Origin: Rhea pennata | Lineage: Eukaryota > Chordata > Aves > Rheiformes > Rheidae | Direction: 5' to 3' | DNA length: 64,000 nt | Assembly: GCF_028389875.1 (NCBI RefSeq) | Contig: NC_084675.1 | Location: 21,352,412-21,416,411, forward strand | Part shown: positions 1,642 through 42,947 of the stretch, piece after piece | Layout of the letters: each line of letters starts with the position of its first letter | Position numbering within the stretch: the first letter of the stretch is position 1 | The notes under the pieces: generated by a model | Told to the model about the DNA's origin: nothing | Databases searched by the model: none | What the model saw: the letters and a program-made list of their open reading frames with translations, nothing else | Made by a program: the position numbers and the translations under genes

Positions 1642-4600
1642 TCAGACGGCGATCTGCTGATTTTCCCGGTAGAGCGGCCGCTGGTGTGTCCCACAGATAT
1701 CCTGGAAGATCCTATACACTTGGTCGTGCTGTGTCTCATCTGCGATGGGGAGCATGGGGCTGCTGCTGCAGGTCTTGCCGGCCTCCTCCACCACCTGCCT
1801 GACACACAGCTGCTCCACCTGCAGCAAAAGGGTTTAAAAAGGCATGAAGACACTGAACCAAGAGCAGCAGCTTGAGGCACCTCCCGTCACCTCCGTCCAC
1901 GCTCCACCGAGCCAGCCAGCAGAGCGCAAGAGGTGGGAGAGATGCAGCAGAGCGGACCAAGGCGAGAAGCGATAAGCACATGGGAGTCAGGCAGGGAGGA
2001 GTGAGAGCAGGGCAAAGGGGGAACAAACACACTTCCTAGCAATTTAAAAAAGCTTTTTAAATTGCGAGCCGCATGGGGGCTTTGTTTGCTAGTGTGATCT
2101 AACCAGATGGTCCAAGGGGTCTCTGAGAAGGAGCTGCCCAAGCACCTCTCTGGAGGCTCTGTGTAAGCCAACATTCATGCCCCACTCACCACTCCACCAA
2201 TTTAGGCACCCAAATGGCCAGTGGCCCCAGGGGTTGAAGCTGCGCAGAGAGTGATAGAGCTCAAAAAAGGGAAAAATTGAGAGCTGGGGGCTGGGAGCAG
2301 AGCTCCCAAAGGCAATCCTCTCACGGTGAGGCCGCACCTGAACGAGGATGAGTTTGCACCGCAGCGGCACCGTGTCCGGGAACTCCTCGCCGAAGCACAG
2401 GATGACTCTGCTCTCCGGGAAGCGGCCTTGGTTGTTGTAATACTGCTGCAGCTCTGCAAGGAGAGGAGCACAGCTGGAAGTCACCTGGCACAGCTGTGAT
2501 CTGCTACACACCCCTTAGGGACCAAACACACCCTGCCACAAAAGAAACCTGTCAGCTTGCTCAAGATCTTGGTTTTTTGGGTGGGAGGAATTTGTTAAGT
2601 GACACTTCACACACCAGATTATTCCTCCCCAATAGAAAACAACTACTAGTCCAGGGAGTACCAGAGCCCCTGGGTAACATAGCAGTGATGGATGCTGATA
2701 ACTTCAAAGTGGTCCAAGGCAAAGGACTCACCTGGGGCAGGCAAAGGATTTACTTCCCTAAGGGTATTTAGCCAAGCAAGGATTAAGACTGAACACTGGA
2801 TGCTTTGGGCCAGATGCTTCGGCCCCACATGCCTGGGCTTGTGGACTTCAGCATTAGGAAGTACAGCAGAGTCACTGGGGTTGTCACTCAGCCATGGAAG
2901 AGCCATCATCAGCACCTTCCCAGCTCAGCTGAGCTTCGCCTCCCTGCCAACACTAGCAGGATCAGCAGACAAAGGCAGTTAAAAAACCTAGAGTCAACGA
3001 AGAGAAACAAGGAGGGAAAACGCTCCTACAAACCTCGGAAGAACAGGTTGGTGTCAAATATCTTCACCACTTCATCCCGGTCCAGCTTGTTGGGCCTGTC
3101 CTTGTACACCATGGTGTTCCCACTCCAGAAGACCCTGCCTTGGCACAGCCTCTTGATGAAGATGCCTTGCTTGTTGCTGTGCAGCAGGACGCCTCGTTCC
3201 AGGTGCCCAAAGAGCTTCTTGGTGATCTGCTTCTGGCGGTCATTCTGGATCGCTTCGGCAGACGGGAACCTTACATGCTCCAGGGCATCCGGGGCATAGA
3301 GCTTCTCGCCATGGCTGGAGGGCTGGCTGAGCGAGATCCGGCAGCCTTCAGGGTAAGAGGTGGTGATGTGGCCAACCAACCTCCCTCCATAATAGAAGCT
3401 GATCACCATCTGGGAGTAACCTGTGAGGAGACGCACGCAGACATAGCCCATCACGGGGAGCAGCCACACTCTTCCTGAGCTTCAGCTGCAGGGCCTGAAT
3501 CCAATGAGGAGCACAATATTTCCTGGGCACAAGTCTTACTCACTGGAGGAAACCTTTTACTTACTAGAGCACATCTCCACTTGCTTTCAGCCTTATAGCA
3601 GGAATAATCAGCAAGTGAGAGCTCTGATTACTGAGCCCCCTTTTCCTGGCTGATGTCAGTTTTCAGCATGGGACCATATTGGCCCAGGTAATACTCACTT
3701 CCCCAGGTTTTGCCTTTAACATATAGCTTTGGTAGGTGGCTACAGCCTCAACCATTTTATGTACATAAACACCGCACTTACAACAAGAGCTGAACACCAT
3801 TGAGCTGAACCGCAGGAAGGACAGTGCAGTGGTTAAAGCAACAGGGATTAGAGCAATCCCCACATGCTGCAGGTGGTACTCAGCAAGATCTTCTTCCGCC
3901 AGTGCTTTCACTCCACACTTCCCCTGTTGTGGGCAAATCTGCCCAAGCCAAAGGCACAACTGACGCCAGCATCCTGGATCAGCCCGTGCAAGGGTGCCCT
4001 GGCTGCAGGACACCCCAGCAGCGGTGGGATGTGTCCTGGCTCAGCCTGCAGACCTTGTGAACACTCAAGCATCCCCAAAGCTGACAAAGTCCCCCACCCT
4101 GGGCACAGGGCTTAGCTGGCAGAGCCACCTTCTGCCACCGCAGCTGCACGCACAAGGTGGGGACCAAGCTCTCCAAGGCATTTGATGACCACAGCATGGA
4201 GCAGGGAAAGCAGGGCAACGGGAGCTGCCTTACCTGAATGTTGTTGCTCGTAGCCAGAGTATCCGTTCATCAGGGGCAAAGCTGTTGGCAGAGAGAAACC
4301 ACAGCTGTGCCTATGTGCCCAGCTCTGGCACGGGGCATCCTCCCCAGAGCCCGAGCACCAAGTCCTGCTCGGCACCACCACCCCCCCAGGCTTCTCTCTC
4401 CCTGGGAGCCTTGTGCTCACCAGGGTTCCCCAATCCTGCTTGGGGGATGCCAGCGAATACATTAGGGTGGATTTAATCTCATGCAATAAGCATTGTGCTG
4501 CCAGCTCTCTTGTACGGACTGCAGTGTTCACAGTTAACACTTCAAGTATTCTTAATAAACTGAAAGAAACATAAAAACAGCTGCTGTCTGGGAGGCTGTC

Positions 4601-7600
4601 CTGCTGCATTTTTCTTTGTAGCTGCTCCCCAGGACAGGAAGCTCGGTCCCATTAAACACCGCACAGACTATCGCCTACTTACCAGGGCTGGGTTGCTGCA
4701 CCCACCAGTCCGGTATCGGGGGGTTTCTGCAAGTCTCCTGAGGGGGCGAGGGGCTTCTCTTGATGATACCCAGGTATTCGTCTACACAGGGGGGCTGGAG
4801 CAGGGAGAGAAGCCCGTTAGATCAGCCAGAGGCGAAGTCAAAGCAGGTTTCGGTCACTGATCTGCCATAGTCACTCAGTGGCCAGCATCCCCCTACAAGG
4901 GGTCCCAAAGGCAAAGCAAGGAGGACAAGAGATCAAGGCACAGATGAACGGTTTTGGTTAGAAAGAGGGACTTTGGGAATCCCCAGGCTGTGTCCCCAGA
5001 TAACACCCTCGAGAGCTGCTGAGCAGAACCAGCCCCACGCTATGCCATGAGGAAGGGGAACAGAGCTATGAAAACACCCTCTGTCTCCCCGGTGCACGTC
5101 CTGCTGACCCGAATGCAAATCGAAAGCACGGTCCATTCATGGGTAACGGCCCCGAGGCCCCGCGGTCGGTTACGTGAATGAATACGGCCATTGTAGCTGC
5201 GAAAGAGCCTCGCGGGCTGCTCCGATTGCAAGAGTCGGAGGTTTCACTTTAGAAAGGCAACGTTTCAACCGAGAAACTTGGCTGTCCCTCCTCGCCCGGT
5301 CGGAAAGGTCCCCGGCGGTCGGGACGACTCACCTCTTTAATCAGGTCATCTATTGCGGAGGGGCTGCAGTCCATGTCCGCGACTTCGGTCAGGCTGCTCC
5401 CGTTCCCAACGCCGATTTTGCCTGGGAACAGATAGAGGGATCCAGCAGCGGCCTCCGGGCCCGGCAGCGACGCGGCGCGGGGCCAGCCAGGCGGAACAGC
5501 CCAGCGCGCCGCCGGCGCCGCTGCCTTTCCGAGGACGCTCACCCCGTGAAAGTTATGAAACCGAGAACCGCAGCGACCCGGCGCCCCGAACACCGCCCGG
5601 GCGCAGCTCGCAGGGGCCGGCAGCCCCCCGCCCGCCCCCCGCTCCAGCGGCCGGGGCCTTTCGGGGCTCAGCTCCCCCAGAAACCCGTCTGCGAGGGGCT
5701 TTGCCTGTGCCAGTCTGCCCACAACGAGCAGAAAAGTCAATCAGATTGACCTGGGACAGAGCTGGCCACGGCACCGAGGTTTTTTTTCTGAGCACCCAGA
5801 GACAGGAGATGCTGCTGCTTCTCCTTTCTCTGCGCGCTGTCGGCAGGAACCTGCCGTGCCATTTGCATACCGCGCCAGAGCCCAGCGCCGAGCCCCCCGT
5901 GTGAACACGACCGAAGAGGACCAAGATGCTAAAGGGAGATTTCCTGGCAATGAGGGTTTTTTTTTTTTTTTTTTTTTTGCAAAAAGTTTTACTTTAAGAG
6001 GAAAAAAAAGTGCGCACACACACACATCTAACCACAAATAAAGATATACTTAGTGCAGCCTGCACCACACCGGACATCACAGCAACAACCGCTCTCTGCT
6101 CAACTGCTGTTACTCTAATCACTGCTGTCACTGCTGGGCAAGGGGAAGGGATTTATTGCATTTATTTTACTGCCTCGATTGCATCCTCACAGGGCAGTCT
6201 GGAGGCTCTGCAAGGGGAAGACAAAGCATTGGGACTCAGTTCCCCGCTTCTGCCCCAAAAGGACCTCACTGGAGGAAGGGCTTCAGCTGTGCCCCCATGC
6301 TATGGCAATGCCACCACAGCAGCAGCTCCCGGGGGCCTCTACCTGGCTCCCAGGTCTGTGGCTCACAGATGGCATTGCTACATCTTTTTCTCCCCCCGTT
6401 TGGGAGGAAGTAGACTGAAGGAGGCACAGTATAAGCCCTTCCAAAGGCTCGAGACCATCTGTCTAGGAGAAAAGGTTCAACTCTGAGGTTGTAATGAGAG
6501 CTGGATCCCAGGATCCACAACAAAACCCTCTGCCTCTCAGCAAGGTCTTTTCTCCCTCTTTGCTGAAAAGCAGCATCCAAAACCTTACAGGACAGAAGCT
6601 CACGCAACGCTCCAGGTAGGAGCAGCTCTTTAGGGAAAAGGAGTGCATCCTCCCTCCCGCGCCTCCCTGGAAGTGCCGGGCACATCCCCAGCGCTGGAGC
6701 ATGGGGGTGCGAGCACGGCACCCAGCCCAGGAAGCACAGCTCAGTGCCCAAATGTAGGTCAGCAGCAGCGGCACGAGGCCGCTTGCTCTCGCCTGCGGTT
6801 ATTCGCAGGAGAGCTGTGACCTCTCCTAGCTGCGATGTCCGCGCACAGGGCTGGTCCCGCATCCGGACACTTACACTTCTGCTCCTCCTCCGGGACGATC
6901 CGGTAGACCTTGTAGGGCTCAGAGATGTCCAGCTGGGACCTGTCCGTCACCTCCTCAAAGTCGGGGCTCTTGTTCAGGGCGCAGCGGAGCCGCGTCTTCC
7001 AGGTGGCCGGCTCCGCTTTGTCGCCTTCCTTGAACTTGCCTTTGAAGACGGCCCAAGCCTAGGAGCAAAGCACAAAGCCCAGGGCTGAACATTTGCCTAC
7101 TGAGGGCTAACTGGCTTGGACATTCCTCCCTGCTTTGGGAGCAGGGCACCTTGCGCTTGGATTTAATATCCATGGAAAGCTTAGACATTAAGTCACACGC
7201 CCCAAGTCTCTGCCAACTAAATTACACCAGCCTAAGTGAGCTAAGATTCAGCCCAGCACCTTTTATACCACAGCTTAAACTAGAGCCAAGACTACAACAC
7301 ATGACCTCATCCTTGCACTGACAGATGAGGGAAAGCAGCTTGGGATACAAGGAAACCCATCAGAAACAGTGATGGGTCAAGTGATCCATTAATACCTAAA
7401 TTAAAATCAGAAGAAAACTATTCTCAGCTTCCAGCTAATGAGCAAGGATATACAGATATCTGAATTCAGCACAGCCTGGCTGCCATCATAGCTCAGCGTC
7501 CCTGAACTAGCCCCGAAAGACAACTCCACCTGCCAGGGCAGACATTCGGAGATGCGGCTGGAAGCCAAGGGAATTCCTGTGGAAGGATCTCACCCCTTTA

Positions 7601-8231
7601 GTTCAAGAAAGGGTTTCCAGCTCTTCACCCTCTTGCAAAGTGAAGTATTTCCCCCTCCCCTCCCCTGCAGGGAAAGCTGACACTTCCTTCCCCTAAAGAC
7701 TGGATTTACCAAAAAGAAAAAAGCTTTAAGCAAAAAAACTCTCATGAGAAGGTTAGACTAGGTCAAAAAGAGCATATTCAGCTCTTCCTCGCATCAGACC
7801 AGAACTAGAACATGCTGAAAGTGAATGCAAATCAGGCATTTGCCAGAGAAGATTCAAACAAGCCCCACAGAAGCCCTCTGGAGATTCACTCCTACATAAC
7901 AGGAGGTGGCGAGGCATCTCCTGGGAGGAGCAAACTCGCAAAATCTGCGGGCGCTGAGGATGCTCCTCACCAGCCAGAGCAAGTCCGCCGGCAATGAAAA
8001 AGAGCATCATGGCACCCAGGAATCACGAGGAACACGAGACCAACCATCCTGCCCCACCTTGAAAATAGACGCATCCACCTCCTGGTTATAGTCCTGCTTC
8101 CCAGCGTGTTTCCAGGGGATGCGGAACATGGTTTTCTCCTCATTTTCCCAAATGAGGCCGGGGTAGAGCTCGCTGTCGATCTGCTCGATCAGCCACTGCC
8201 GGAGCCGCCTCCCACCGTTCCTGTCGCACAT
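1642..8231 (-). CDS. IRF8: Interferon regulatory factor 8, complete, eight coding exons
   Basis: IRF8 is a haematopoietic transcription factor that directs myeloid, dendritic and B-cell programmes, partnering with PU.1 and other IRFs. Coding exons on the minus strand are 8058-8231, 6875-7058, 5333-5421, 4683-4794, 4234-4281, 3034-3420, 2338-2453 and 1642-1818. They join in frame to 428 aa, close to the 425-426 aa I recall for chicken and human. The N-terminal DNA-binding domain (about 1-115, starting MCDRNGGRRLRQW) keeps the five-tryptophan pattern at W13, W28, W40, W60 and W78. The IRF-association domain (about 200-380) lies mainly in the 387-bp exon, which includes SYPEGCRISLSQPSSHGEKL. The protein ends RENQQIAV. 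The start is preceded by a CAG|G acceptor with the ATG one base into the exon. Several donors are textbook, for example GTAAGT after 6875 and 4683. Nothing looks broken. Confidence 0.97.
5957..5978. repeat. Poly(T) tract, 22 nt
   Basis: An uninterrupted run of 22 T on the plus strand, in the IRF8 intron between coding exons 2 and 3. No SINE or processed-gene body is recognisable beside it. Confidence 0.9.
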
Positions 8232-10800: not shown

Positions 10801-11130
10801 CCCTGTGCCCACATTTCACACATTCCCAATGCCCCACATCCCAATTTCAGGCATCCTTAACACCCCACACACCCCTTTCATGCACCCCCAGTGCTCTGCA
10901 TCCCAATTTTGGGCATCCCTAATGCCCCACACACCCCTTTCATGCACCCCCAGTGCTCTGCATCCCAATTTTGTGCACCCCTAACGCCCCACACGCCCTT
11001 TTCATGCACCCCCAGTGCCCTGCACCTCGATTTTGTGCACCCCTAACGCCCCACACGCCAATCTCACGCATCCCCAGCACCCCGCATCCCCATTATTGCG
11101 CACCCCTAGCACCCCGCCTCGTGCCTCCCC
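10801..11130. repeat. 62-bp minisatellite in IRF8 intron 1, about five copies
   Basis: The block CCCCACAC recurs at 10863, 10925, 10987 and 11049, an exact 62-bp period, with weaker copies on both sides. Each unit holds a CCCCAGTGC-type block and an AATTTTG-type core. The array begins about 75 bases inside the intron from the donor of the non-coding first exon. The IRF8 coding (minus) strand is the G-rich strand. Confidence 0.85.
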
Positions 11131-14880: not shown

Positions 14881-17800
14881 TCATCTGCTCATCCGGCTGC
14901 TTCCGCCGGCGCCGTGGGGACGCGGGTAAGCGGGAGCCGGAGCGTCGATCCAGGAGGGCTCCTGGCTCCCGGGCTGCTCCCTCTGCCGCTCCTCCTGCCG
15001 GGCGAGCAAGCGCTGCAGCTCCTCCTGGTCGCCAAACGGGTTCCTGCCGTAGTCACGCCGGATCCAGGCGCGGTACTGCCGAGACAAGGCCGAAAGAGGT
15101 TGGGAACGCCCGGCGCGCGCGCGGGAGCCGGCGAGTCAACCCGGGGCGATGCCCGCCGCGGCACGGCGAAGGGCCGGGACCCTGCTGCGCGGCGGCTGCC
15201 GCACATGTATTTTGTGCCGAGAGAGGCGACGTTTCCCCAAAGGGGCCTTCTGCGCCCCCAACTTAGCGGAGACGCTGCAAAGTGACGTCCCGTGCGGGGC
15301 AGGTGCCAGCCGCGTCCCCGGGCAGAGCTGCTGCGCGGCGCAGGGGGAGAAAAGCGGCACGTGCTGCCGGGAAGCGGCAGGAGGGGAAGGGGACACGTCC
15401 CCGGCAGAGAAGGCTCTTGCACCCAAAGCGATGAATTTTGCACCCAAAGCAAGGAAGTTGCAGGCAGCCCAGCGCCACGGAGCGCGCAGGAGGGAGCAGC
15501 CGGTGCCTGGGCGCCGCGCGTCAGCCCCGCCGGGAGACTTGGCGCAGCTCCGGCTTCGCGCGCAGGGCCGCGGCAGGCCGACAGCTTTATTTACCCCGCG
15601 CTGCCAAGAAGCTGCTGCTGCTCCTTTCGCGACCGAGTTACTGCACGGCAAGCTCCCCCGCGCTCGCCCCCCGCTCGCGCTCGGCGGCGGCGCGGCGCCG
15701 GGGCTGCGATCGCTGCAGCGAGCCGAGCCGCTTCTCGCGCGTTCAGCGGATACGTTTGCGGAGCCGCTGGCACCCGCCCCGGCCCTGCAGCCGGAGGCAA
15801 AGGGCAGCCCGGCTCGAGCAGCGCCGCGTCCTGCCGGCCGGCGGCCAGCTGGCGTCAGCCTGGAGTCCGGAGGTTGCTTGGAAGCGGAAGGCGGCTTGGA
15901 GAAACGCTTCCCGCTGCTGCTGGGATGAGAAACAGGCTCTAACTGCAAGCCCGGGGCCGGCGGGGAGAAGGGGGCCGAGGCGCGTCCGGCGGTGCCGGGC
16001 GCCTTCTCGTGAGAAAGGGTCGGGGCACGGATCGGCAATGCAAAAATCGCGGGGTGCAAGGATTGGAGGTGCTGCCCCGGAGAGGGAGCAAGCGTCGCAC
16101 CCCCGGCTGCGCCCGCCGCTCCCGGACGGCGCCGGGCGGCCGGCACGAAGCCCCCGCGGTTCGGGGGGCCGTGGCCGGGGGAAGCGGGCTGCGAGGAGCG
16201 GGGCAGGCAGCTGCCGCGTCCCGCCGGAGCCGGGAGCGCCGAGGTGCGGTGGGAGCAAGCCCGAGGCGAACGCTCGCGCCAGGCCCCCTGCTTCCCTGCA
16301 GCCAGGGAAAGTCAGCGGGGCCGGAGGGGATTTCCACTGGGAATGTCCGGGCTTCCCAAATCCCCTCGCTCGGCAGGCCGGGGACTCACCATGCCCGACG
16401 CGCGCTCAGACGCGGGAAGAGCCACCGGCAGGGCTGGATGCCAACCCGAGCCCAGCGAGCCGCGGCTGATATCCTCCGAGGGCTAAAAAACAACCGCTGG
16501 GAACAACATCCCAGGCGATTTCCAGGTGGGATGCGCCGGCGGCTGGACTGGATCTCGTTCCTCCAGGCCAGTGCCTGGAGGTCGCTTCGGGCTGCTCCGC
16601 ACCGCCGGTGCTTCCCGCAGCGCCAACCCTGCTCCTTGCTCTGCGGGCCGGGAGCACCGGTGCCACCGGCACGGTGCCAGCGCCGTGGGGCACCTGTGGG
16701 CGGGGGGACAGGTACGTCCCCCCCCTGCAAGCACCCGCCCTGCGGTGCTTCCTTCTGGGATGCCTCCGCCGTGGTTGGTCCCTTCCTTCCCCCTCTTTAT
16801 CCCCGGCGCCCCGAGAAGCCCCGTTCGCCGGCTCGAAGCCGCAGCGGCGTGCCAGAGCCGCGCTTCCTCGCGGGGCGGATCCTCCCCGCTCCTAACTCCC
16901 GGCACCTCGTCCGCGATCGCGGAGCCGGATGACGTTCTCCAGAACGGCGTTTCCGTATTTCCGCCTTCCGGGACGATAGCCAGGCTAAATTAGGAAATCT
17001 GACCTCCCCTTTCCTTTAGCATCAGCACGAGCTGCTACGCCGCAGAGGCCGGCTCACGGCATCCTCCGGAGGTGCCGTCTCCCGCGCGCTTCGGACGCGG
17101 CCCCGAGCCCGGCGCGAGGACGAGCAGCCTGGCGCCCTGCGCAGGGACAGGGACAGGGATGCGAGCGCGCTCCGGGCGGCACCCGACTGCGAGGCAGCTC
17201 CGGCGCATCCCACCTCCCGGCGCCCAGCCCGAAACCACGGTTTGCCTAACCTGTCCCAAGCCACGGACACCCCTTTCGCTCCTTCCGCTTGCAAGGAGGA
17301 GCTCGGAGGTGGAAAAGGCACCGGCTCGCTCCGAGCGCAGCAACACCCGGTCCCTCGTGGCTCGGCGATCAGCTGCTGCTCGTCCAGAGCAAATCTTCTG
17401 CACAAAAATCCTGACACTTCCCCTTATTAAAATGCAGCTGCGGCTGAGTAACGCGGGAGCGCTTTCATTCCCCCTCGCAAACGCCCAGCCTTCGCCCCGA
17501 GGACCGCGCGAGGAGCAGTCCGCCCACGAGGGCGTTTGCAGCTTCCCCCCCGGATACGAGGAGCACCGGGAACGCAACGCGTTTCAGCTCAAAGGCTTCG
17601 CTCGCAGAACCCGCGCCCGCCGCTCACGGCCCGGAGGCGCGCGGCCGCCCCGCGCGGCCCTCCGGCCTCTGGCGCTTGCAGGGAAACGCTCGCCAAATCC
17701 ACGGCGCCACTGCAAGAAACCAAAAGGCAAAGAAAACGCGGAGCCTAAAGAAAAGGGAAGAGCAAGTGACATTTGCAGAGGCCAGCCCGGATTTGGGGGA

Positions 17801-20800
17801 AGCCGAGGGGAAAAACTCCGCTTTAGGAGCCTACGGGGGCACGGCCAAGCCCGTTGCCCTTGGAGGACGCGGCGCTCCTCGCCGGGGGAAGCCCTGCGGG
17901 GAATCTCCGGCCCCGCGGGTATTTTGCAATCCCTCGGACCCAGCATTTTTGCTGGGGGAAGGCGGGGGTGACAGCCAGGAGGGTCACGGGCCAGCGCCCG
18001 GCCGTGGGAGGGAGCCCCGTGCGCTCCTGCGGGGAAAGGCGCTGACCATCGGCACCGGATCGCGTGCCGGGAGAAGAGGCGAGAAATCCCCTCGGACCGG
18101 GCGGCCGGGGAGAGCGCCGGGCCGCCGCGGCGGCTTGCACGCGACGACGGGCCGTCGCAGCCCCGCTCCCCACCGCAGCAGAGGAAGACGCGCGGCTGCC
18201 GGGCCGGCGGGGAGCTGGGCTTTGCCCGCAGGGATGCGGAGAGGAGCCAGGGGGTTGGCAGATGCTCTAGACACACCAAGCTGGAAGCTCACAGCTTATT
18301 TCCTACCGCTTAGCGATCAATCGCTGCTCGGAGCAGCCGCCCCCTCGCTAGTCACAGCCCCACCGGCACGTGCCCGGCTGCTCCGCGTCGCCTCTCCTCT
18401 GCCGGGGCTGCAAACGGCCTCGCTCGGGGGCAAAAGCGCACGAGCAATGCCATCGCTCCGGCTCCCGGGATGCGGCTCGAGCACGGGGACATCCTGCCCT
18501 GGCACGGGACATACCCGCTCAGCCACCATCGCTGCTCGCCTAAAACCCGGCACCCTGCTTCGTTTGGGGAAGGGAGAGGAGAATTTCTTAGTTAACACTC
18601 GCTTCCCTCCATCAGATGCTTCTAAAAGCAGGGATTTTCTTTCAAGGAAAATCCAAGCGCTGTCCGGGATCGCAGGCTTACAGGGACCCTGCCTCCCCCT
18701 CCCATTCCGCCCTCGCCTCCCAGACGCCCCAGCTGCACCTCGTTGCGCGTGGGAAGCTTGGGGCATTCCCTGGAATCACTCCATCGAATCACTCCATCAC
18801 CCCTTCCCTAACTCCCGGGGGGGTTGACGCTCAGGTGTCCTTCCCACCGCATCCTAACTGAACCCTCGAGAAAATAAGGATTTTCAGACAGCCTCGTTCA
18901 GTGCGCTCGCGTAACGTCGAGGCACTTTTTCTTTGCATGCATGCATGCGCACATGCAAAAAGCAAAACCTCCAGGTAATAAATAGCGCGCGGAGAGGCCG
19001 GCTCGGGCGAACATCTGGGCCCCGCAGCTAGCTGCATGCAAAGCAGCCGTGCCTGCCTGCACGCTCTGCAGACGCTATAAAGGGGCTTTGGCTCCGGAGT
19101 CCTTCGGCAGCGGGTCCCCGCGGCGAGGCGCGCGCGTGCCGCGCCAGCACCCACCTCCGCGAGCGAGGTCGCCTCGTAGTCCCGCAGCTGCCGCTGGAAG
19201 CCGAAGTTGGGGCTGACGTAGGAGCGCGCGGCCTTGGTGGCGGCCAGGCACGTCTCCCAGCCGAGGTCGGTGACCGTCATCAGGTAAGCGACCAGGACGG
19301 TGGTGCTGCGGGAAACCCCCGCCAGGCTGGCGCGGCGCGGCGGAGCGGCGTCAGCGGGACGCGCAGCCCCGGCGCCGGGAAGCACGGCCGCGGCACGTCC
19401 CTCCGCGGTGCGTTCGGGCGACGGGCTTCCCCCCACCGCCCCAGCGCGGACCCTCCGTCCCGGCCCCCGCCGCCTCCGCCTTTCCCTCTCCGCAGCTCGC
19501 GCTCCGTCGGGAATCCCGTTCCCATCCCGCAAACGGAGGGCGCGGGGACCCTCGCGCCGCTCCTGCGAGCGCCCGGGACCCTTCCTCCCTCCGCCAGCCC
19601 CCCGACGAGCGAGCCTCTTCCCCGCCAACGCCAGCTACGCCAACGCCCGTCGCTAACGAAGCCGAGTAACGAAGCGGGTGCGGGAGCGCTCACCAGTGAA
19701 CGAGGCAGCCGCCCCCACAGAGCCGGCACTCGTGGATGAATTTGATGCACTCCTTGAAATGCTGCATCCTGGAGGGAGAGAGCAGCCAGGTGAGGCGGGG
19801 ACGAGAGGCCGTCCCCAAGAAAGGAAACCCTTCCCAGGACTTCCCAGCCTCCGAGGAGGGAAACCACGGCCTCGGGATTTCCTGCTTCCCGAGGCGCCGA
19901 GCCCGGAGCGGGGCGATGCCACCAGCAGAACGAGCTCGGGCACGAGCCGGGGGCGAGGCAGCCTCCGGGGCACGGCACCCACGGGATGCGATTCCTTCCG
20001 CCTCCCAGCTCCCGGGGAGCAGCTCCGGGCCGGGGATGCAGAGCCTGCGGCTGCATCCCTGAAGCACAAAGTACTGCCGGTCCCCGGCAGCTCCCAGCAC
20101 GGCAGCAGCTTTAACCGGAGGCAGCAGGGAGCGATGGGCTCTGCTCCCGCTCACCGTTCCCACCTGACGCAGGAAGCTGAATCCCACCCAAACCAGGAGA
20201 TGCAACGCGGAGCCGGGTTATTTTTCCTCTAAACACATGCTTGCATGCTTGGAAGAGGACATGGATCTGGAAGGGGGAGGCTGAAAGGAGCCCGCCGCCG
20301 GCTCCCGGGCGGCACGGACCGCGTCCCGGCAGCGCTGCCAGGCCGGGAGCCGCGAGGGCCGTTCGCCTCCCGGACTTCCTCTGCCTGCGCGTGATGAGGG
20401 TGGGCGTGCGCTCGCCTTCCTGATTTCTCGGAAGCCGGGACCCGAGCCGCCGCGGAGCTCTTGCCCTGGCGCGCGGCTCGTCCCTGGCCGAGAGCCCCCG
20501 CGGGAGCTCGGGCCCGGCGGGACCCGCTCACGCTTTCTGCCCCCCCCCCCATCGAGAGGGATGCTCTTCTCCTCCTTGGGAGGGCAGAGTTTGGGCATCT
20601 TCTAAGAAACCGGCCAAAGGCAACGTTCAAAAATAGCTGCCCAGAGCTCAACAAGCACAAAAACAGGGGATTCGCCGAAGCCTCGGCCACACACACAAAA
20701 CGCTTAGTCTCTCGGCCGCTAAAGGAGGTGCCGGTCCGTGACCCCTCCCGGGCTACGGGGCGGCTACGGGACGGCTCGTCCTCAGCCGCTGGGGCACAGG

Positions 20801-23800
20801 CACCACCTCCGCCTGGAGAGCAGCTTTCCTGACCCCTACGGCTTGCCCTGGGGGATTTATCCTCGTCCGGCTCATCCTTGCGGAGCCGAGAGGCCGGCAG
20901 GAGCCCCCGGGGCCGCGGCAGGTTGCTTACGCAGACCGCGCAGGTCCGAGCTTTCCAGATCCCGGGTGGGATCTCCGCAGCTCCGCCGGGTTTTCCAAGG
21001 CCGGGCCGGCGAGAGGGAAGGAGGGAAGGCGTCCCCATGCGCTCCCGGCCTCGGCCCGTGGGATCGGCATGCTCAGCCCTGCGGGGCCCCGAGGCACAAG
21101 CATCTCCAGGACGCCAAGTTCACTGGGATTGTGAAATCCCAGGCATAAACCGACGAGCAAAAAATAGAATAAGTCTTCCTTCCGGCAGCCGAGCTTTTTC
21201 TTCTTTTTTTTTTTTTTTCAGTAGACATGCCACAAGCGCAGAGAGATGAGAGGAGAGAAAATAACATCCAAAAAACCCTGATCTTGCTGAGGCAGGGCTT
21301 TCTTGTAAAGCTTCTCTTTCCGCTCAGCGGGAGCATGAGCAAGCAGAATTATATGCCAGGGACACGGCCAGTTTCTCCAAAAGACACTGGGAAACCAGCG
21401 GCTCCGCAACGGGTTTAGCTGTGGTCACGGGGGACCGACTCCGGCACGTGAGGTCCTGGGAGAGGAGGCTGAGCCCGTCACAACTCGCTGCATCTCCCGC
21501 AAGGGAGCGGGAGCCGGCCCGGGCCCTGCTTCGCGTGCAATAACCCACGCAGAAAGCGCCAGCGACCGCCAAGGCAGCGGCGGGAAACCGCAGCCTCTGC
21601 CAGGCTGGTTTCTGCAGAACCGCCGATGCTGTCCCGCACGCTCGCCTCCCGTTTTCCATAAAAATCCATTTTAATAATTATTCTATTTCTCTTTCCAAGG
21701 AAAATGGGAAGATTTATGTATTTTTTTCCCTCTAGGGCAGGGAAAATTGCACCCTTTCTGAGCCCTTCCAGGTAGAAACCATTCTGAAATTCAGTTGCAA
21801 ACTCGATTTGCTAGATTTACTGGCTGCATACACGCAGAGAAACAGAGAGACTTTAAAACCCTTGAACACCGTCAGCCGCCTGAGAGTGAACCACCCCTTT
21901 TCTGAAGCTCAGCAACGATACGAAGCTTTTGCGGCATGAACAAGTTTGAACCTTGGCTCAGCAGAATTTGAACTTTTATTATCAGAGAATTAGCAAAATG
22001 CCACGCCGGGAGGCAAAAGGGTCACAAATCACTTACAGGTTTTGACTGGACGAGTCCGAGGCCGATATGCAGAGATAAGTCATGCCCTGCAAAAAAGGGA
22101 GAGTTGTAGCAGTCAGATACCATGGCACAAGGCCATATCTCCCGTTTCTCTCTGCGCCTTCTCCCTAGAGCAGCCTTAGCACAACACGTGCTTGGGGTAA
22201 AATCCCTCCTGCGATCACCGAGCCACGGCCCGAGGCAGGATTTTCCCAGGGCCCAGATCAGCGCCCGGGACAGTTCCCGAGCCGGGAGGACGCTCCCGGC
22301 GCCTCCGGCCCTGGAGCGAGGCACGAGCCCTGCCAGCAAGACGTGCGCGGACACGGATTTACCCTGCCACGCTCATCAACGAGTTATTTCCTCCCCGTCC
22401 TCTTAATACACCATAAATCATCCTGCCGCGCGTTGGCGTAGGTCAGGTTACTTTCCTTTCTTTAAAGCCTCACTTCCTCCATCCTCCCTGTTCCGAACTA
22501 AAATTAGAGCCTTTTCACCCGTTTCCCCCCCCCCCCTTCCAAGCCAAACGGGGTGGAAATCCTGCCAGAAAGGGCTGAAATAGCCAAACACCCATGCACC
22601 GAGGATTGCCCCATCTTCATCCAGCTCTTCCCGGGCATCGCTGCCTGCTGGGCGGCCCCGGCCCCTCCGCCCCCCGAGCCGCCGGAAAGCGCCCGGAGCG
22701 AGCTCCGGCACCGCGCGCTCCTCGCTCCCCTCGCGGGCTGCAGCCGGGCGGGAGCCGCTGGGAGCACACGCGCAGCGAGGTTGACGGGTCTCGGCCCGGT
22801 CCCTGAGGATGGCACCCGGGAAACCAAGGAAGCTCAGAGCGATGCTTGTGCCGAGGGAAACCCCTTCGGGCCGGGGGGCTGCAGGAGGGCCCGGGCTGGG
22901 CTCGCAGGGAGACTGTGCGGGGCTTTTCCCGTGTGTCCCCCCTCCGTCCCGCAGCGCACCCATCCTGTGCTCTCCGCCGCGGCGCGGGTGAAGCCAGCAG
23001 CCCGCCCGGCGCGGCCGAGGATGCTCAGCAAGGCCGTGGGAGACGGGGACCGAAACGGGGCCAAACAGTGGTCTGGACCAGCTGGGGCTGCAAACCGGGG
23101 GGTGAGGGGCTCCGGCGGGGGTGAGGGGCTCCGGCGGGGTGGGGACCGCCGGTTTGGGAGAGGAAGGGGAGGCAAGACGGGGCCGCGGCTCAGCCCGGGG
23201 TGCTGGCGGGAGCCGGCAGGCGCTGCCCCGCGTCCGGGCGAGCCGAGCCGGGCCGGGCCAGGCCGGCTGCTGCCCCGCTCCCACCGCCGGCCGTTTCGGG
23301 GCCGCCGGTTTTGTGCACGCTCCCTCCTGTGCTCTTCCTCCCCCCTCCCACGTCACCCGAGGCGCCTCCGCGGGGGAGAAGCTCCAGCGGTTCCGTGGAG
23401 CGGCGGCTCGTCGGGAGGAGCGAGCGGGGCCGGCCCGGCGCCCCTTCGGCTCCCGCAGCGCAGCGGGGCTCGGCCGGAAACGGCGGGGTGACTCGGGCAG
23501 CCTCGTGCCTCAGTTTCCCCCCTTTCGGGCAGGGGGGCACCGAGCCGCCGCCCCGGACTGCGCCCGTCGCAGCGACCCCCCCCCCCGCGCTGGGCACCGG
23601 GCTGCACACGGGAAATCCCGGCCCCCCCCCGGCCCCGGCGCCCCCGGGCGCTGCCGGACACCCCCCCCCCCCCCCGGCGCCCTGCGCCGCTTTGCACGGG
23701 CCCGCAATGCCCTCTCGTGGCCCCCGCGCCGCCAGCACCGCCACGCGCCTGCCGCCGCCCTTTGCTCTCCCCGCACCCCCCCCCCGGCCGCTGGGACCCC

Positions 23801-26800
23801 CCTCCCCGGCCCCGGGACCCCCCCCCCCCGCCGCCGGCACGGAGCAGCCGAGGGGCGGCAGCGCGGAGCCCCCTCGGCGCAAGCCCGGCATCGCCTCCCC
23901 CGCCTGCACCAGCCTCTCCGTCCCCACCGTCGGGGTCCTGCGCGGCCACCCCGGGGCGCTGGCGGCTCCCAGCACGCGGGGGGGGGGGGGCCCGCAGCTC
24001 TCCCCCCCCCCCATCCCCAGCATCCTCACCTCCAGTACGGGCTTGGCGTTGTTGTGCACGGAGAGGATGTGGGTCACGCCGTTCCTCAGCAGGTTTTCTC
24101 GGTCCTCGGCGTCTGCAAACGGGTGCAACGCGTGAACCCCCCCCCACCCATCGTTTCCCCTCGCACCTGCCGCAAACGCCTCTGCCACCCCCAAGGAGGG
24201 AGAGGGGTCCCTGCCAGCCCCCTGGCCCTGGGGCGGGGTGGCTGCGTGGAGTAGAGGAGGCATCAAGGCAAGCTCTGGCAAGGAGCATCCGAATAAAATA
24301 GCATTTCTCCTGCCGGAGCAGGATGGTTTGCAGCTCCTGTCCAGTCATTTCGCTCTGCCCAGGACTCATTTGTCGGCCCCGGGGCATTGCTCCTTCAAAG
24401 CAATGACCACCCCTGGGCGGTCAGCAGGCAAGGCAGCTCCTAAAACCACCACCAAAATCGGACACGGTGCAAAACACAACTTGAAAAAGGTGGTTGCATG
24501 CTCATTGCATAGGTGAAACCTGGGCTGGAGGCCTGGGCATGTGATAGGAAAGCCCAGCGTTGGCTCCACTGTAAACATCATCTCAGCAAACCCAGGGAGG
24601 TTTCCAGCCGGGAGAGCGGGTCCTGCGCACCCAGGCACGTTCGGTGACTGCCGGTCCCAGGGCCAGCCCCTGCCCAGGGCCAGCGCTGCTCCTTTTTGCA
24701 CGAGGCTGCCCTGGACTTGCTGCTGGGATGGGGCTTTTCCAGGCTTTCGGTTCTCCAGAAGGCCCCAAGGTCCCCAAGCGGGAACAGCCACAAGGAGCCT
24801 CCCCCCAAAATGGGATTTTCTGCAAGGTGCGAGGGGAGCGCTGGAAAGGGGACCCGGAAACACCCCCTTCCCTAGTGCTGGCAGCAGGTTTCAGGACACT
24901 GATTTCCAGGAACGAAGGATCTTGAAAAGGGCCGAGACCCCCGGCCAGGGAGAAGAGGGGCCCTCCGGCACCGCCGGCGGATCGCACGGAGCGAGCCGGC
25001 GCGGAGGAGGCGAAGCCGAGCGCCGCACTTACCACTGATGTTCCCGAGATAGAGGCCTGTGACCACCTGCGGGGAGGCAAAGCGGAGAGTTCAGACGGCG
25101 CCGGGCGCAGCGCGCGTCCTCGCACGGCGGGGCGGGAGGGCTCCCGCGGACCCGACCCAGGGATTCTCCTTCCTCCGGAGCAGGACGGCCCAAATAGCTC
25201 CCGGGGTAGGGGGGAAGCAAAGCCCCTTGGACGTGCTGCTGTCGGAAAGATCCCGCCGGGAGCTGGATTCCCGAAACGGGTCCGCCCGGGACCTGCCGGC
25301 GCGCGGCCCCCGGAGCACGAGGAGCCCGGCCCAGCCGCCACGGGCGGCTCGGACTCCGAGGCACGAGCGGAGGCCAGCCCACGGCTTTGCTTTGCCTTTC
25401 TATAGCAACCGGCTCTTCCAAATAGGTTCAAAGGTTGCCTCCGCCAGCTAGGAATAAACGGGCATTATAAATTTCTTATAAATAGCACCAGCTATTTATA
25501 ACGCTTCTCTGGCCAGGAGGCTGCAGTAAGCGCCTTCAAGCATGCAAAATCTGTCTCCTGCTCTCTGCTGTCGGCTACAAAAAAGAGACAATTTTGCGTA
25601 TTTACGGAGTGTAATAACCTGCTAGGGCCATTTCCAGAAGCACGGAAAGGAAGAGCTCCTTCCCATCAGCATTCATTTACACCCTTCCTGCAGAAGAAAC
25701 CCAGTTCAAGAGGCTGCAGAAAGGTTTTCCCAGCAGAGACGGGGCCTCGGCACCTCTGCGAATTGCCTTTGCGCGCCCTGGGTCGCCCGCTCGAACGCAC
25801 GGACGCTGCACGGCAGCAGACATCCTTGCCCTGGTCCAGGCGATTTGTTTCGGGCTGCGTAAAGCCGTTGCAGCGAGTGCAGCGATCTAAAAGGAGCAGC
25901 CCCTGGGGGCATTTCACAGCCCCGAGCGGGGCGAAGGAGAACACGACCGGCAAGGAAGCCCACGGTGAAAACCCGAAGGAGCGTGCAGCTCCTTGCAGGA
26001 TCACCGAGCTCCCAGGTGCGGGTACCGGGAGCCACGCTCTGAGCCCGACGGCTGCGGAAGAATTCATTAATTTTTGTTACCCAGGGGTGTAATAAGAAGA
26101 GAGCAGAGACGGCTCTGATTTATCCCGGCGAGCGCGGCGCTCCGCACGTAACGGGCGCCTCTCGCCCTCCGAGCGCCCGGCACAGGCTCCCGGCCGCCTG
26201 CGCCGCGGCCGGCCCCGCGGCCAGCCGGCCGGGGACGCCGGGGGCCCCGCGACGCGCCCGGGCGCAGCCGGACGGCGCGGCACGGCGCCGGGACCCGCGG
26301 CCCGGAGGCTGCCAGAGCCGCTTCCAGGGGCGGCCGCGGGGGCCGGAGCGCAGCAGAGCCACCCGGAGAGCTTGTCCTGATCCGGTGTCTCTGTTGTTGT
26401 TTCAGAGTCTAATTTTAAGCTGGTTAACGCACGTACCGAGCGGTTATTTAAGGATACAAACCGAAATCAATCCCCCCCCCACCGCCAGCCCTGCAGTTCA
26501 GCTGAGCAGCGACCGTCGGTAAAACGCCCCTCGAGCCGTGCGCACGAGGTGTCCCCGGGCACGGAGGCGTCTCGGGGGTGGCGAGGGAAGGAGATTTCCC
26601 TGCACGCGTCCCGGTAACTTTGCATCAGAGCCCGGGAGGCTCCGAGGGGCCCGCGTTAGCCCTGCGGACGCTGGCGCCAGGGCTCCACCGCCCGAGGGAC
26701 GAGCCCCTGAAGGCAGCTGTCACTTTTTAAACACTTTAGCACTTAGCTCATCGCCCGCAGCACAAACCCAGGGATCGCCGCGTGCTTTTAAATGCACATG

Positions 26801-26990
26801 AAGAAAAATCTCTTTCTTAAATGCTCGGAGTTTCAGAAGGAAAAGAGAAAAGGAAGATGCGACCGGCTGCATCCGGGGTGTGTTGTTGCGGCCTGGGAAC
26901 GAGCGTCTGCCTGGATAGTGGCAAAAAGGTGCCACGGAGGAGGACAGGCTGGCCCCGTCCTGCACGTACCTTGCTCATTCCACTCCCCAT
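14881..26990 (-). CDS. DUSP22A: Dual-specificity phosphatase of the DUSP22/DUSP15 family (DUSP22A type), seven coding exons
   Basis: This is a small atypical dual-specificity phosphatase related to DUSP22 (JSP1/JKAP), which acts on JNK-pathway and T-cell signalling; its own substrates are unknown. Minus-strand coding exons are 26970-26990, 25033-25066, 24030-24112, 22037-22086, 19694-19768, 19155-19326 and 14881-15075. All joins are in frame and give 209 aa. The N-terminus MGSGMSK fits N-myristoylation (G2, S6, K7). The general acid D57 lies in SASDSSSQN. The signature HCLAGVSRS has C88 and R94, the same numbering as human DUSP22. The fold ends near residue 145, followed by YRAWIRRDYGRNPFGDQEEL and a Gln/Arg/Glu then Pro-rich tail ending SSRMSR. 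This tail is longer than in DUSP22 (184 aa) and near the 208 aa I recall for fish dusp22a. The C88 codon is split TG|C by an intron. The gene appears intact. DUSP15 is the main alternative name. Confidence 0.9.
25476..25501. promoter_or_regulatory. Perfect palindrome of two MEF2-type sites
   Basis: The left arm TTATAAATAGC (25476-25486) and right arm GCTATTTATAA (25491-25501) are exact reverse complements around a four-base spacer, ACCA. Each arm holds a match to the MEF2 consensus YTAWWWWTAR. It lies in the first intron after the start codon of the DUSP22-like gene, in a locally AT-rich island. Function is inferred from the motif only. Confidence 0.55.
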
Positions 26991-29887: not shown

Positions 29888-32800
29888 TCATTTTTTCCAT
29901 TCGTTCTTCTCAAAATCCCATTGGGAAGAGATGCCCTCAACGGGGTTCATCCGCATGTCCAACATTCTCTTTGTCTGCATTGCCAACCACTCGTCAGAGA
30001 AGGTGTGGGGAATAGGGCCGTACACTGCAATTCGAAAGCAGGTGGAATTACACGGTGATACAAGACGGACAAGCCGGGAACAGACATACGAGTTTTGCTA
30101 ACAGAAAGCTTTTTCCCCTGAAGCAATTTGTGTTGATCCCATATATGCCAGCACCTGCTCAAACTCAGGTTCCCTAAATCCAATTCCAAGATGTTGGGCT
30201 TGGACCAGTTAAGACTCTAACAGCTTCCTTAATCAGTAAAAGCAGGTACAAAGACAACAGCCTTCTCCTAATCTTCACTGTGGGCAGATAAAGACTCAGG
30301 ATGGAGAACTGCTCATTTAACTGCACACACTGTCTCATGGTACCTGCAGCGTTCACTCAAGGCAGGATCTTTTCCTGGGCAGGAAGCCAGATGTGGCAAA
30401 ACCCCAAACTTTTACTACCAAGAAGACAATAAGCTTTTGTGATAACAGGTTTCACAAACAGGGGAAGCTCCCAGACTGCTAGTATATCACTACTCTTTCA
30501 CTCCCTTTTCCTCTCTTCCCTCCAAAACTCCATCCACAAACATCGCATTTCTACAGTCAACTTCTACATTTAAGCTACACATCTGCTTATATCTGTTAAG
30601 CCACAATTCCAGAACTGAGTTTTAAGAGGATAGCAAACAGCAATTGCCAAGTGGTCACCAATATGGCTGTATTATGCAACATTTTGAATTCCCAAGCAGT
30701 TTATAGAGGATTTTCAAATTCCACGTTAAATATTAACTGACACCTGTCTCAAACTAAAGAGTTATCACTATATACCATTTACTTACTATAAATTTTCTGC
30801 CAAACAAGGAAGAGACCAGTTATGCCAAGAAAGAACAGTACTCCACCGAGGACGGTCTTCCACTCATTTGATCCTCTGTTCATTTCTGCATAGCTCTCAT
30901 TGAATTTGATACGATACACTGCATAGGGGAGGAAAATAAAGCATCAAACTATTTCTTTCATTTTTCCTGCACGTGCAGGCAACAAGACACTCTCCAGAAG
31001 GAGATGATTAAAGCCTAAAGCTGTCTGAAATGGAACAGACGTAAAAATAACTCTTGATTCAGGTGGCCTCTCCCATGACACTTGTGCCTAAGTAAACAAG
31101 TTGTGTTCCACCATCCCCTCATGAGTAAAATCAGCGTTAGTCTCTATTTTATAGAAGCAAACATGATTGTAAGGTTGCGCTAAAGTCACATCCTAGGCCT
31201 GTCAGAAAGAGAAATATAGCTTTTCTTCCTTCCCAACAATTCCCAGTACGGCTATTTACCACAGATCTCACTCACACAAATCACTTGAACAGGAATGCTT
31301 TTATCTCAGAAGGCTACTGTCAGCTCTGCCAGTAAGGCCCCATCGCAAGAGATATTCTGAAGTTCAAAACAGCATCAGATTTGGAGAGGACTTATGAACA
31401 TCTGAGGATTTCCAAAGAGACAGTTTTACATCTTCTCACTTTGACGTAAGTAGGCACAACACCATTCAGAGATGCCACACAACATGGCAGTGTTTGCACA
31501 ACATGATGACAGCCAGAAAAGGTGATGTAGTTTCATTTACAAGTCAGACCACCTGCCCGACACTTCAATGGACTGAAACTCTGTAACACTAAGATCAGCA
31601 ATCGATAACATTCAAATAAAACATGGTTCATTTTACTCAATTGAACTAATAAGATTACATATTGTTAACCATAACTTGGAAAAAATCTCTTCATTGCAAC
31701 AGATTAGAAAGAAATATAAAACTTCTTTTTTTGGGGGGGGGGCGGGAATTGTTGAACTTTACCAATTGCTAGCTAAATCCCTTACATCAAATCTACCATA
31801 TGATGCCAGGCACCTAACAGATACCAAGGCAGGTGGCCTGAGTTTCTAAAATAGCACTAAGAATCCCAACTACAGAAGAATACATCGATCTCCATTTGAA
31901 CATATGCAAAGAGCTCCATCACATTTAATGGCTCCTTCTTGGCTCAACTCTCTGCCTGCAGATCCATTTAAAAGATCAGGGCTTAAAAGTAGCCTAAAGC
32001 TGCCTTCCATGGGTGTATCTGCAGTAAAATAGTCATCAATAATGCACAAGTAATAGATTAGGGCACATCATTGCTAGCTGCAAGGTTTATTTATAGCCCC
32101 CACTACTTACGTTCAACTTTCTCATCAACAGACAGAGCAGTCCACGATGCCTTTTCCTTTTCTTTCAGAGCCTTCTGCTGAGCAGACAGATCCCTTACAA
32201 AGGCCACTTCAGGCAGGGGAACATCACGGCGATCAGTGTATGCTGGAAGGCTGAAGTCCTCTGCTTTTACAACACCAGCTACATATGGGAACAGAAGTGA
32301 CACTGACTGAAGTTTCTGACTTCTACACAAACATATCCTACCAGTTACTATAGGAGGGAGGAAAAAAAAAATGAACAGGTAACCCAAAAAGGTTAAGTGA
32401 TAATGACAGTTAAAAAGGGAAAGAGGTTATAGATAATATTCAGATTCCATCTATTTGGTTAGCGTCATCCATGTTTATCACAGAGAAAAAGGGAAAAGAG
32501 ACAGCTCTTAAAAATAGTGCTATCCTAAGAGCGTAAGAATAACAGCAAGGGATCTCCAAAAAAGGTGATATCCGAAATGACTTTAAACTGTAAGTCTAAG
32601 ACACCTCCATTTCCAAGTGCCACACTGATTATCTAGAAATCCTCTACACTTTTTCCATCCTAGTTCCTGCCAGGACCCTCTATTCCTACAATTCCCCATC
32701 TGCCGTTACTCCTGCCTGCACTTCAGCTATGCCCTCAGCCGGAAAGGAGACTGCTCGGATCAGAAAAGTCTCACCAGCCCTCGGCCTGCCTTGCTCCTGG

Positions 32801-34512: not shown

Positions 34513-42947
<8,435 letters not shown>

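Follow-up and report, generated by a model that had tools for sequence, protein, structure and literature searches.

In Rhea pennata, a dual-specificity phosphatase gene lies between IRF8 and COX4I1. This IRF8-locus DUSP is very probably an ohnologue of DUSP22 and DUSP15, derived from a multiplied DUSP - IRF4/8/9/10 - Fox block; it is likely to be the dusp of frog and fish, and its product would be DUSP22-like. The window analyzed here is a stretch of 64,000 nucleotides (C13:21352412-21416411), and the same-genome searches covered the assembly of 1.27 Gb in 180 contigs. The first-pass annotation had described an intact seven-exon phosphatase gene between IRF8 and COX4I1, and the gene model agrees with this. 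The gene occupies positions 14881-26990 of the minus strand, its product is 209 amino acids long with no internal stops, all six introns have GT-AG ends, and the phases join. Exon 4 (50 bases) was located in a separate step. The features of the gene are given below, where the three paralogues are this gene and the DUSP22 and DUSP15 of the same genome.

26970-26990, minus strand: exon 1, encoding MGSGMSK, in which Gly2 is the predicted N-myristoylation site; start context ACCATGG
25033-25066, minus strand: exon 2, 34 bases in all three paralogues
24030-24112, minus strand: exon 3, 83 bases in all three paralogues
22037-22086, minus strand: exon 4, which holds the catalytic aspartate D57; 50 bases in all three paralogues
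19694-19768, minus strand: exon 5, whose end falls within the codon of the catalytic Cys88; 75 bases in all three paralogues
19155-19326, minus strand: exon 6, with the remainder of the HCLAGVSR P-loop (S93, R94) and N128; 172 bases in all three paralogues
14881-15075, minus strand: exon 7, the C-terminal tail and the stop codon
26001-28000, strand not given: CpG-rich stretch covering exon 1 (GC 0.60-0.74, CpG observed/expected 0.81-1.08), a possible promoter judged from base composition only

The gene is GC-rich at third codon positions: GC3 is 0.87, against 0.50 in the DUSP22 and 0.62 in the DUSP15 of the same genome. No AATAAA occurs in the 6.5 kb downstream of the gene, where only ATTAAA is present, from 899 bases on; this is a point against function. 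A scan of the window with Rfam at gathering thresholds gave no matches. Between IRF8 and the phosphatase gene there is a tandem array of a 62-base unit in about 4.5 copies (window 10837-11115).

Residues 12-140 of the encoded protein match the Pfam DSPc domain with 101 bits, above the cut-off of 33.5. Among solved structures, the protein is closest to human DUSP22 (1wrm), with 228.6 bits, and human DUSP15 reaches 168.7 bits; for comparison, human DUSP22 and human DUSP15 match each other with 200.2 bits. D57 and C88 are catalytic in DUSP22, and D57, S93 and N128 form an active-site network, as reported in the accessible part of PMC7589817. All these residues, together with R94 and Gly2, are present in the IRF8-locus protein under the DUSP22 numbering. 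The P-loop HCxxGxxR reads HCLAGVSR, with C88 and R94, and the general acid D57 is in place, as expected of a dual-specificity phosphatase. Myristoylation on Gly2 has been termed unique among protein tyrosine phosphatases for JSP1 (DUSP22) and DUSP15 (PMC13090511). The IRF8-locus protein has this glycine too (MGSGMSK), which is the subfamily mark of predicted myristoylation. Judging by these residues, the product is likely to be an N-myristoylated, active DUSP22-like phosphatase. A search for relatives among prokaryote contigs gave, from 76 pattern matches, one locus, which proved bacterial with 28% identity and was set aside.

It could be supposed that the gene is a pseudogene, or that the gene model has no working product. 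The fast evolution of the sequence fits this, as does its reported absence from mammals and, in the accessible part of a 2006 survey, from chicken (PMC1634998). Against it, all seven exons are open, the six introns have GT-AG ends with consistent phases, the start context is good, a CpG-rich stretch covers exon 1, and every catalytic residue tested is kept. We consider a pseudogene very improbable and treat the gene as intact.

Along the minus strand, COX4I1 comes first, followed by the phosphatase gene and IRF8. On the plus strand, EMC8 and a GINS2-like start follow beyond COX4I1.

3125-8207, minus strand: IRF8, downstream of the phosphatase gene; DNA-binding domain matches at 8058-8207 and 6894-7058, association-domain motif at 3125-3169
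29894-32261, minus strand: exons of COX4I1, which lies upstream of the phosphatase gene and shares its strand
34513-34728, 39727-39813 and 42798-42920, plus strand: EMC8 exons, the middle match being weak (E 0.009)
60523-60561, plus strand: GINS2-like N-terminal motif, from a motif search that permitted up to 3 mismatches

We take the IRF gene of the window to be IRF8 from its linkage to COX4I1 and EMC8 and from sequence motifs taken to be those of IRF8. The 20 PDB matches listed include none to a chain named IRF8, and the best is IRF4 with 203.5 bits; these matches place the gene in the IRF4 group and do not separate IRF8 from IRF4. The GINS2-like label is likewise our assumption. Directly after the GINS2-like start, at window 60591-60875, a 31-base unit is repeated about nine times.

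We compared this locus with the rest of the genome. The DSPc search gave 44 matches, and three of them start at profile position 82, which corresponds to the start of exon 6. One of the three is the gene of the window, and the others belong to two complete genes:

C2:99720875-99759876, plus strand: DUSP22, complete, 206 amino acids, upstream of IRF4
C16:17562727-17554964, minus strand: DUSP15, complete, 215 amino acids, upstream of IRF10

It turned out that the first six exons have identical lengths in all three genes (21, 34, 83, 50, 75 and 172 bases), and that the phases are 0, 0, 1, 0, 2, 2 and 0 in each. The last exon has 195 bases in the IRF8-locus gene and 186 or 213 in DUSP22 and DUSP15, in that order. 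Because six exon lengths and all phases recur in two further genes of this genome, the model of the IRF8-locus gene is not a product of chance, and this architecture puts the gene in the DUSP15/DUSP22 subfamily.

The surroundings of the three genes correspond as well. At all three DUSP15/22-type loci found, a DUSP gene is followed by an IRF of the IRF4 group and then by forkhead matches, in one order and on one strand, as ohnologous loci should be. The IRF genes lie at 99786539 on C2, 21360618 on C13 and 17550508 on C16. About 26.7 kb separate the stop codon of DUSP22 from the nearest IRF4 match; the IRF8-locus DUSP is about 6.7 kb from IRF8, and DUSP15 about 4.5 kb from IRF10. The IRF on C2 matches IRF4 best with 257.6 bits (IRF10 189.9), and the one on C16 matches IRF10 best with 211.8 bits (IRF4 196.0). 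Same-strand forkhead matches number three on C2 (100.21-100.35 Mb), three on C13 (21.12-21.07 Mb) and one on C16 (17544620). These are 7 of the 56 forkhead matches genome-wide. At C16:17544501-17544620 the forkhead exon is followed by a run of N, in the position expected for FOXS1 adjoining IRF10.

The first-pass annotation had proposed that an ancestral IRF4/8-DUSP22 pair was duplicated and that one copy was kept beside IRF8. The same-strand order, the exon lengths and the tree described below all support this. It had also spoken of a pairing of IRF and phosphatase at two loci; the IRF4 and IRF8 pairs stand, and the set was drawn too small. It is at least three-way, because DUSP15 and IRF10 make a third oriented pair. 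Apparently, the genome duplications of early vertebrates would have multiplied a same-strand block of a DUSP gene, an IRF4/8/9/10 gene and a Fox cluster, and DUSP22-IRF4, DUSP15-IRF10 and the window gene with IRF8 would be the three surviving DUSP-IRF pairs in this genome.

We also looked for members of a fourth block. There are 20 IRF domain matches, spread over 9 loci; IRF9, the IRF of the fourth pair, was not found among the four loci examined (C2, C13, C16 and C97). COX4I2 was not found: three of the four COX4 matches are above the cut-off and all lie in the window, while the fourth (C15) is below it. EMC9 was not found either, all three EMC8/9-type matches being within the window. No fourth DUSP15/22-type gene was recognized among the stronger of 43 protein-search matches, and starts at position 82 occur only on C2, C13 and C16. 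The fourth IRF locus examined, C97:40380-42028, lies on a contig of 54 kb with a GC content of 0.71 over 7 kb, and has two exons that encode an IRF3 DNA-binding domain. Its best match (202.3 bits) is a fusion chain with IRF3 as one part; the IRF3 chain 2o6g gives 147.0 bits and the best IRF4 chain 88.6. Non-avian reptiles also possess IRF3. According to the accessible part of PMC12220609, palaeognaths are the only birds in which IRF3 has been found, and there it occurs in each of the five orders; the exons on C97 would therefore suggest a palaeognath bird.

The relation of the IRF8-locus protein to its paralogues was assessed by sequence comparison. Over 146 codons, it and the DUSP22 of the same genome are identical at 0.68, 0.77 and 0.39 of first, second and third codon positions, with 60% of amino acids kept; for DUSP22 and DUSP15 of the same genome the values are 0.67, 0.77 and 0.40. 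Read at the codon level, this pattern points to old purifying selection. Over 156 residues, the IRF8-locus protein is 60.9% identical to human DUSP22, 59.0% to the DUSP22 of its own genome and 50% to DUSP15, while human and same-genome DUSP22 are 88.5% identical to each other. At 11 of the 156 sites it agrees with the DUSP22 pair against the DUSP15 pair, at 8 the reverse holds, and 14 are private. The tail end of the protein has little likeness to the tails of the DUSP22 and DUSP15 of this genome.

The tree was built from the three proteins of this genome and human DUSP22 and DUSP15 from PDB. Two DUSP proteins of the same genome, from C17 and C20, whose domain lies in one exon, served as the outgroup. 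The five DUSP15/22-type proteins group at 100/100, apart from an outgroup of only these two other DUSPs. In this tree the IRF8-locus protein joins the DUSP22 pair (87/100) and stands outside human and own DUSP22 (93/92); the DUSP15 pair is not recovered, yet it is not rejected (p 0.398). Without the outgroup, the DUSP15 pair is supported at 100/99 and the DUSP22 pair at 93/92. The branch of the IRF8-locus protein is long, with 0.61-0.73 changes per site.

These data bear on two other origins of the gene. It could be a fast-evolving, lineage-specific copy of DUSP22 inserted beside IRF8. The protein is indeed nearer to DUSP22 than to DUSP15, both in bits (228.6 vs 168.7) and in identity (59-61% vs 50%), and its branch is long. 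However, it shares residues with own but not human DUSP22 at 3 of the 156 sites, and with human but not own DUSP22 at 6. The AU test disfavors pairing with own DUSP22 (p 0.041 with the outgroup and 0.046 without it, a thin margin) and with human DUSP22 (p 0.043 without the outgroup). In its place and strand beside an IRF4-group gene, the gene agrees with the other two pairs, and frog and fish reportedly carry a dusp at this locus (PMC1634998, accessible part). Because all introns are kept, the gene is not a retrocopy. DUSP22 itself lies on C2 beside IRF4, and the IRF8-locus protein falls outside the DUSP22 pair (93/92), so that it is not an orthologue of DUSP22 in the strict sense. A recent copy of DUSP22, which would have spoken against the first-pass annotation, is thus disfavored by a thin margin, and we give this origin very little weight.

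The gene could also be the orthologue of DUSP15 or derive from it. In line with this, 8 of the 156 sites side with the two DUSP15 proteins and against the two DUSP22 proteins (11 the opposite way), and the AU test does not reject a group of the IRF8-locus protein and the DUSP15 pair (p 0.149). But an intact DUSP15 lies elsewhere in the genome, on C16 beside IRF10, and the AU test rejects a pairing with just the DUSP15 of the same genome (p 0.00014 and 0.0002); a place inside DUSP15 had been named beforehand as evidence against an ancestral pair. We regard a DUSP15 origin as highly unlikely.

The ohnologue reading is the one we retain. On this tree, the divergence of the IRF8-locus gene most likely predates the mammal-sauropsid split, with a thin margin for DUSP22. 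The IRF8-locus protein may be nearest to DUSP22 or may stand outside DUSP22 and DUSP15 together; the latter order is not rejected (p 0.183). A heading in the accessible part of PMC4718558 calls IRF10 most closely related to IRF4. Therefore, an order with DUSP22 and DUSP15 together and the IRF8-locus DUSP outside would be favored, and our data are compatible with it.

The gene resembles DUSP22 (JSP1, JKAP, VHX; beside IRF4) in the domain, the catalytic residues, Gly2, the six exon lengths, the phases and the same-strand place upstream of an IRF4-group gene. It differs from DUSP22 in its locus, its C-terminal tail, a serine at residue 6 and its GC3 (0.87 vs 0.50). With DUSP15 (VHY; beside IRF10) it shares the gene architecture, Gly2 and the same-strand place upstream of an IRF4-group gene; unlike it, the gene has another C-terminal tail and a product only 50% identical over 156 residues, and DUSP15 is a separate intact gene in this genome.

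A paralogon of this kind has been described. In the accessible part of their paper, Wotton and Shimeld (2006, PMC1634998) report four paralogons with IRF4, IRF10, IRF8 and IRF9, with DUSP22 and DUSP15 beside the first two. Since this four-fold IRF/DUSP/COX4/Fox paralogon was published in 2006 (PMC1634998), our finding is not new in principle: it is ordinary ohnologue retention, of a kind already described. The new points are the intact copy in a bird genome and the presence, within that genome, of three DUSP-IRF pairs that are oriented in parallel. According to the same text, both Xenopus tropicalis and a region of zebrafish chromosome 18 have a dusp together with psf2, noc4 and cox4I1, "unlike chicken and mammals". 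As assembled in 2006, the frog genome had irf8 on a different scaffold, and in zebrafish the gene lay on a contig with no assigned place; in neither was it linked to the dusp. Two pufferfish had a similar cluster with irf8 included, and a DUSP beside IRF8 is thereby reported in other vertebrates, as the first-pass annotation had called for. The mammalian lack of the IRF8-locus gene, which that annotation assumed, is reported there as well.

The dusp of Xenopus tropicalis, zebrafish and pufferfish beside cox4i1 shares with the gene of the window the neighbors COX4I1, EMC8 (NOC4) and GINS2 (PSF2), and in pufferfish IRF8 (PMC1634998, accessible part). The likeness is one of position only, and its link to the name dusp22a is our own. 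Judged by position, the IRF8-locus DUSP is most likely the gene kept by frog and fish beside cox4i1 and reportedly absent from mammals. In zebrafish, dusp22b and irf4a sit together on chromosome 2, and the twin region on chromosome 20 is described as being without dusp22 (PMC9597995, accessible part); because of this, zebrafish dusp22a may be of the IRF8-locus type. In salmon macrophage-like cells, dusp22a, possibly the IRF8-locus gene, was lowered by poly(I:C) at 24 h (PMC5591513, accessible part). Subscription papers aside, we found no report of the IRF8-locus DUSP in a bird among the literature matches listed; automatic models in sequence databases are possible. There is no mention of dusp in the accessible main text of PMC7915476, PMC4718558, PMC12220609 and PMC12954441. 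An early chicken assembly could have missed the gene because of its GC-rich setting (GC3 0.87).

DUSP22 is a positive regulator of JNK and dephosphorylates LCK at Y394 (PMC13090511). By analogy, the IRF8-locus product would be N-myristoylated on Gly2 and membrane-associated like DUSP22. It would remove phosphate from tyrosine or serine/threonine of signaling proteins by means of Cys88 and Arg94, with Asp57 as the general acid. Its targets may be kinases or other signaling proteins, as for DUSP22, and it may be expressed in myeloid cells, because IRF8 adjoins.

Why a DUSP gene persists upstream of IRF4-group genes may be approached through regulation. One speculative and rather improbable explanation is that its introns or promoter hold enhancers that the IRF needs, so that one regulatory unit was kept three times; in mammals the DUSP exons would have decayed, leaving the IRF8 enhancers in place between COX4I1 and IRF8. 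With all three DUSP-IRF pairs oriented alike within a single genome, the question of shared regulation becomes testable. The 2006 survey, in its accessible part, recorded the dusp in frog and fish and in none of the amniotes examined (chicken and mammals; PMC1634998). A bird genome with the IRF8-locus DUSP means that the gene persisted in the sauropsid line. For immunology, the finding draws attention to a DUSP22-like phosphatase as the neighbor of the myeloid regulator IRF8; mouse and human models reportedly lack this phosphatase.
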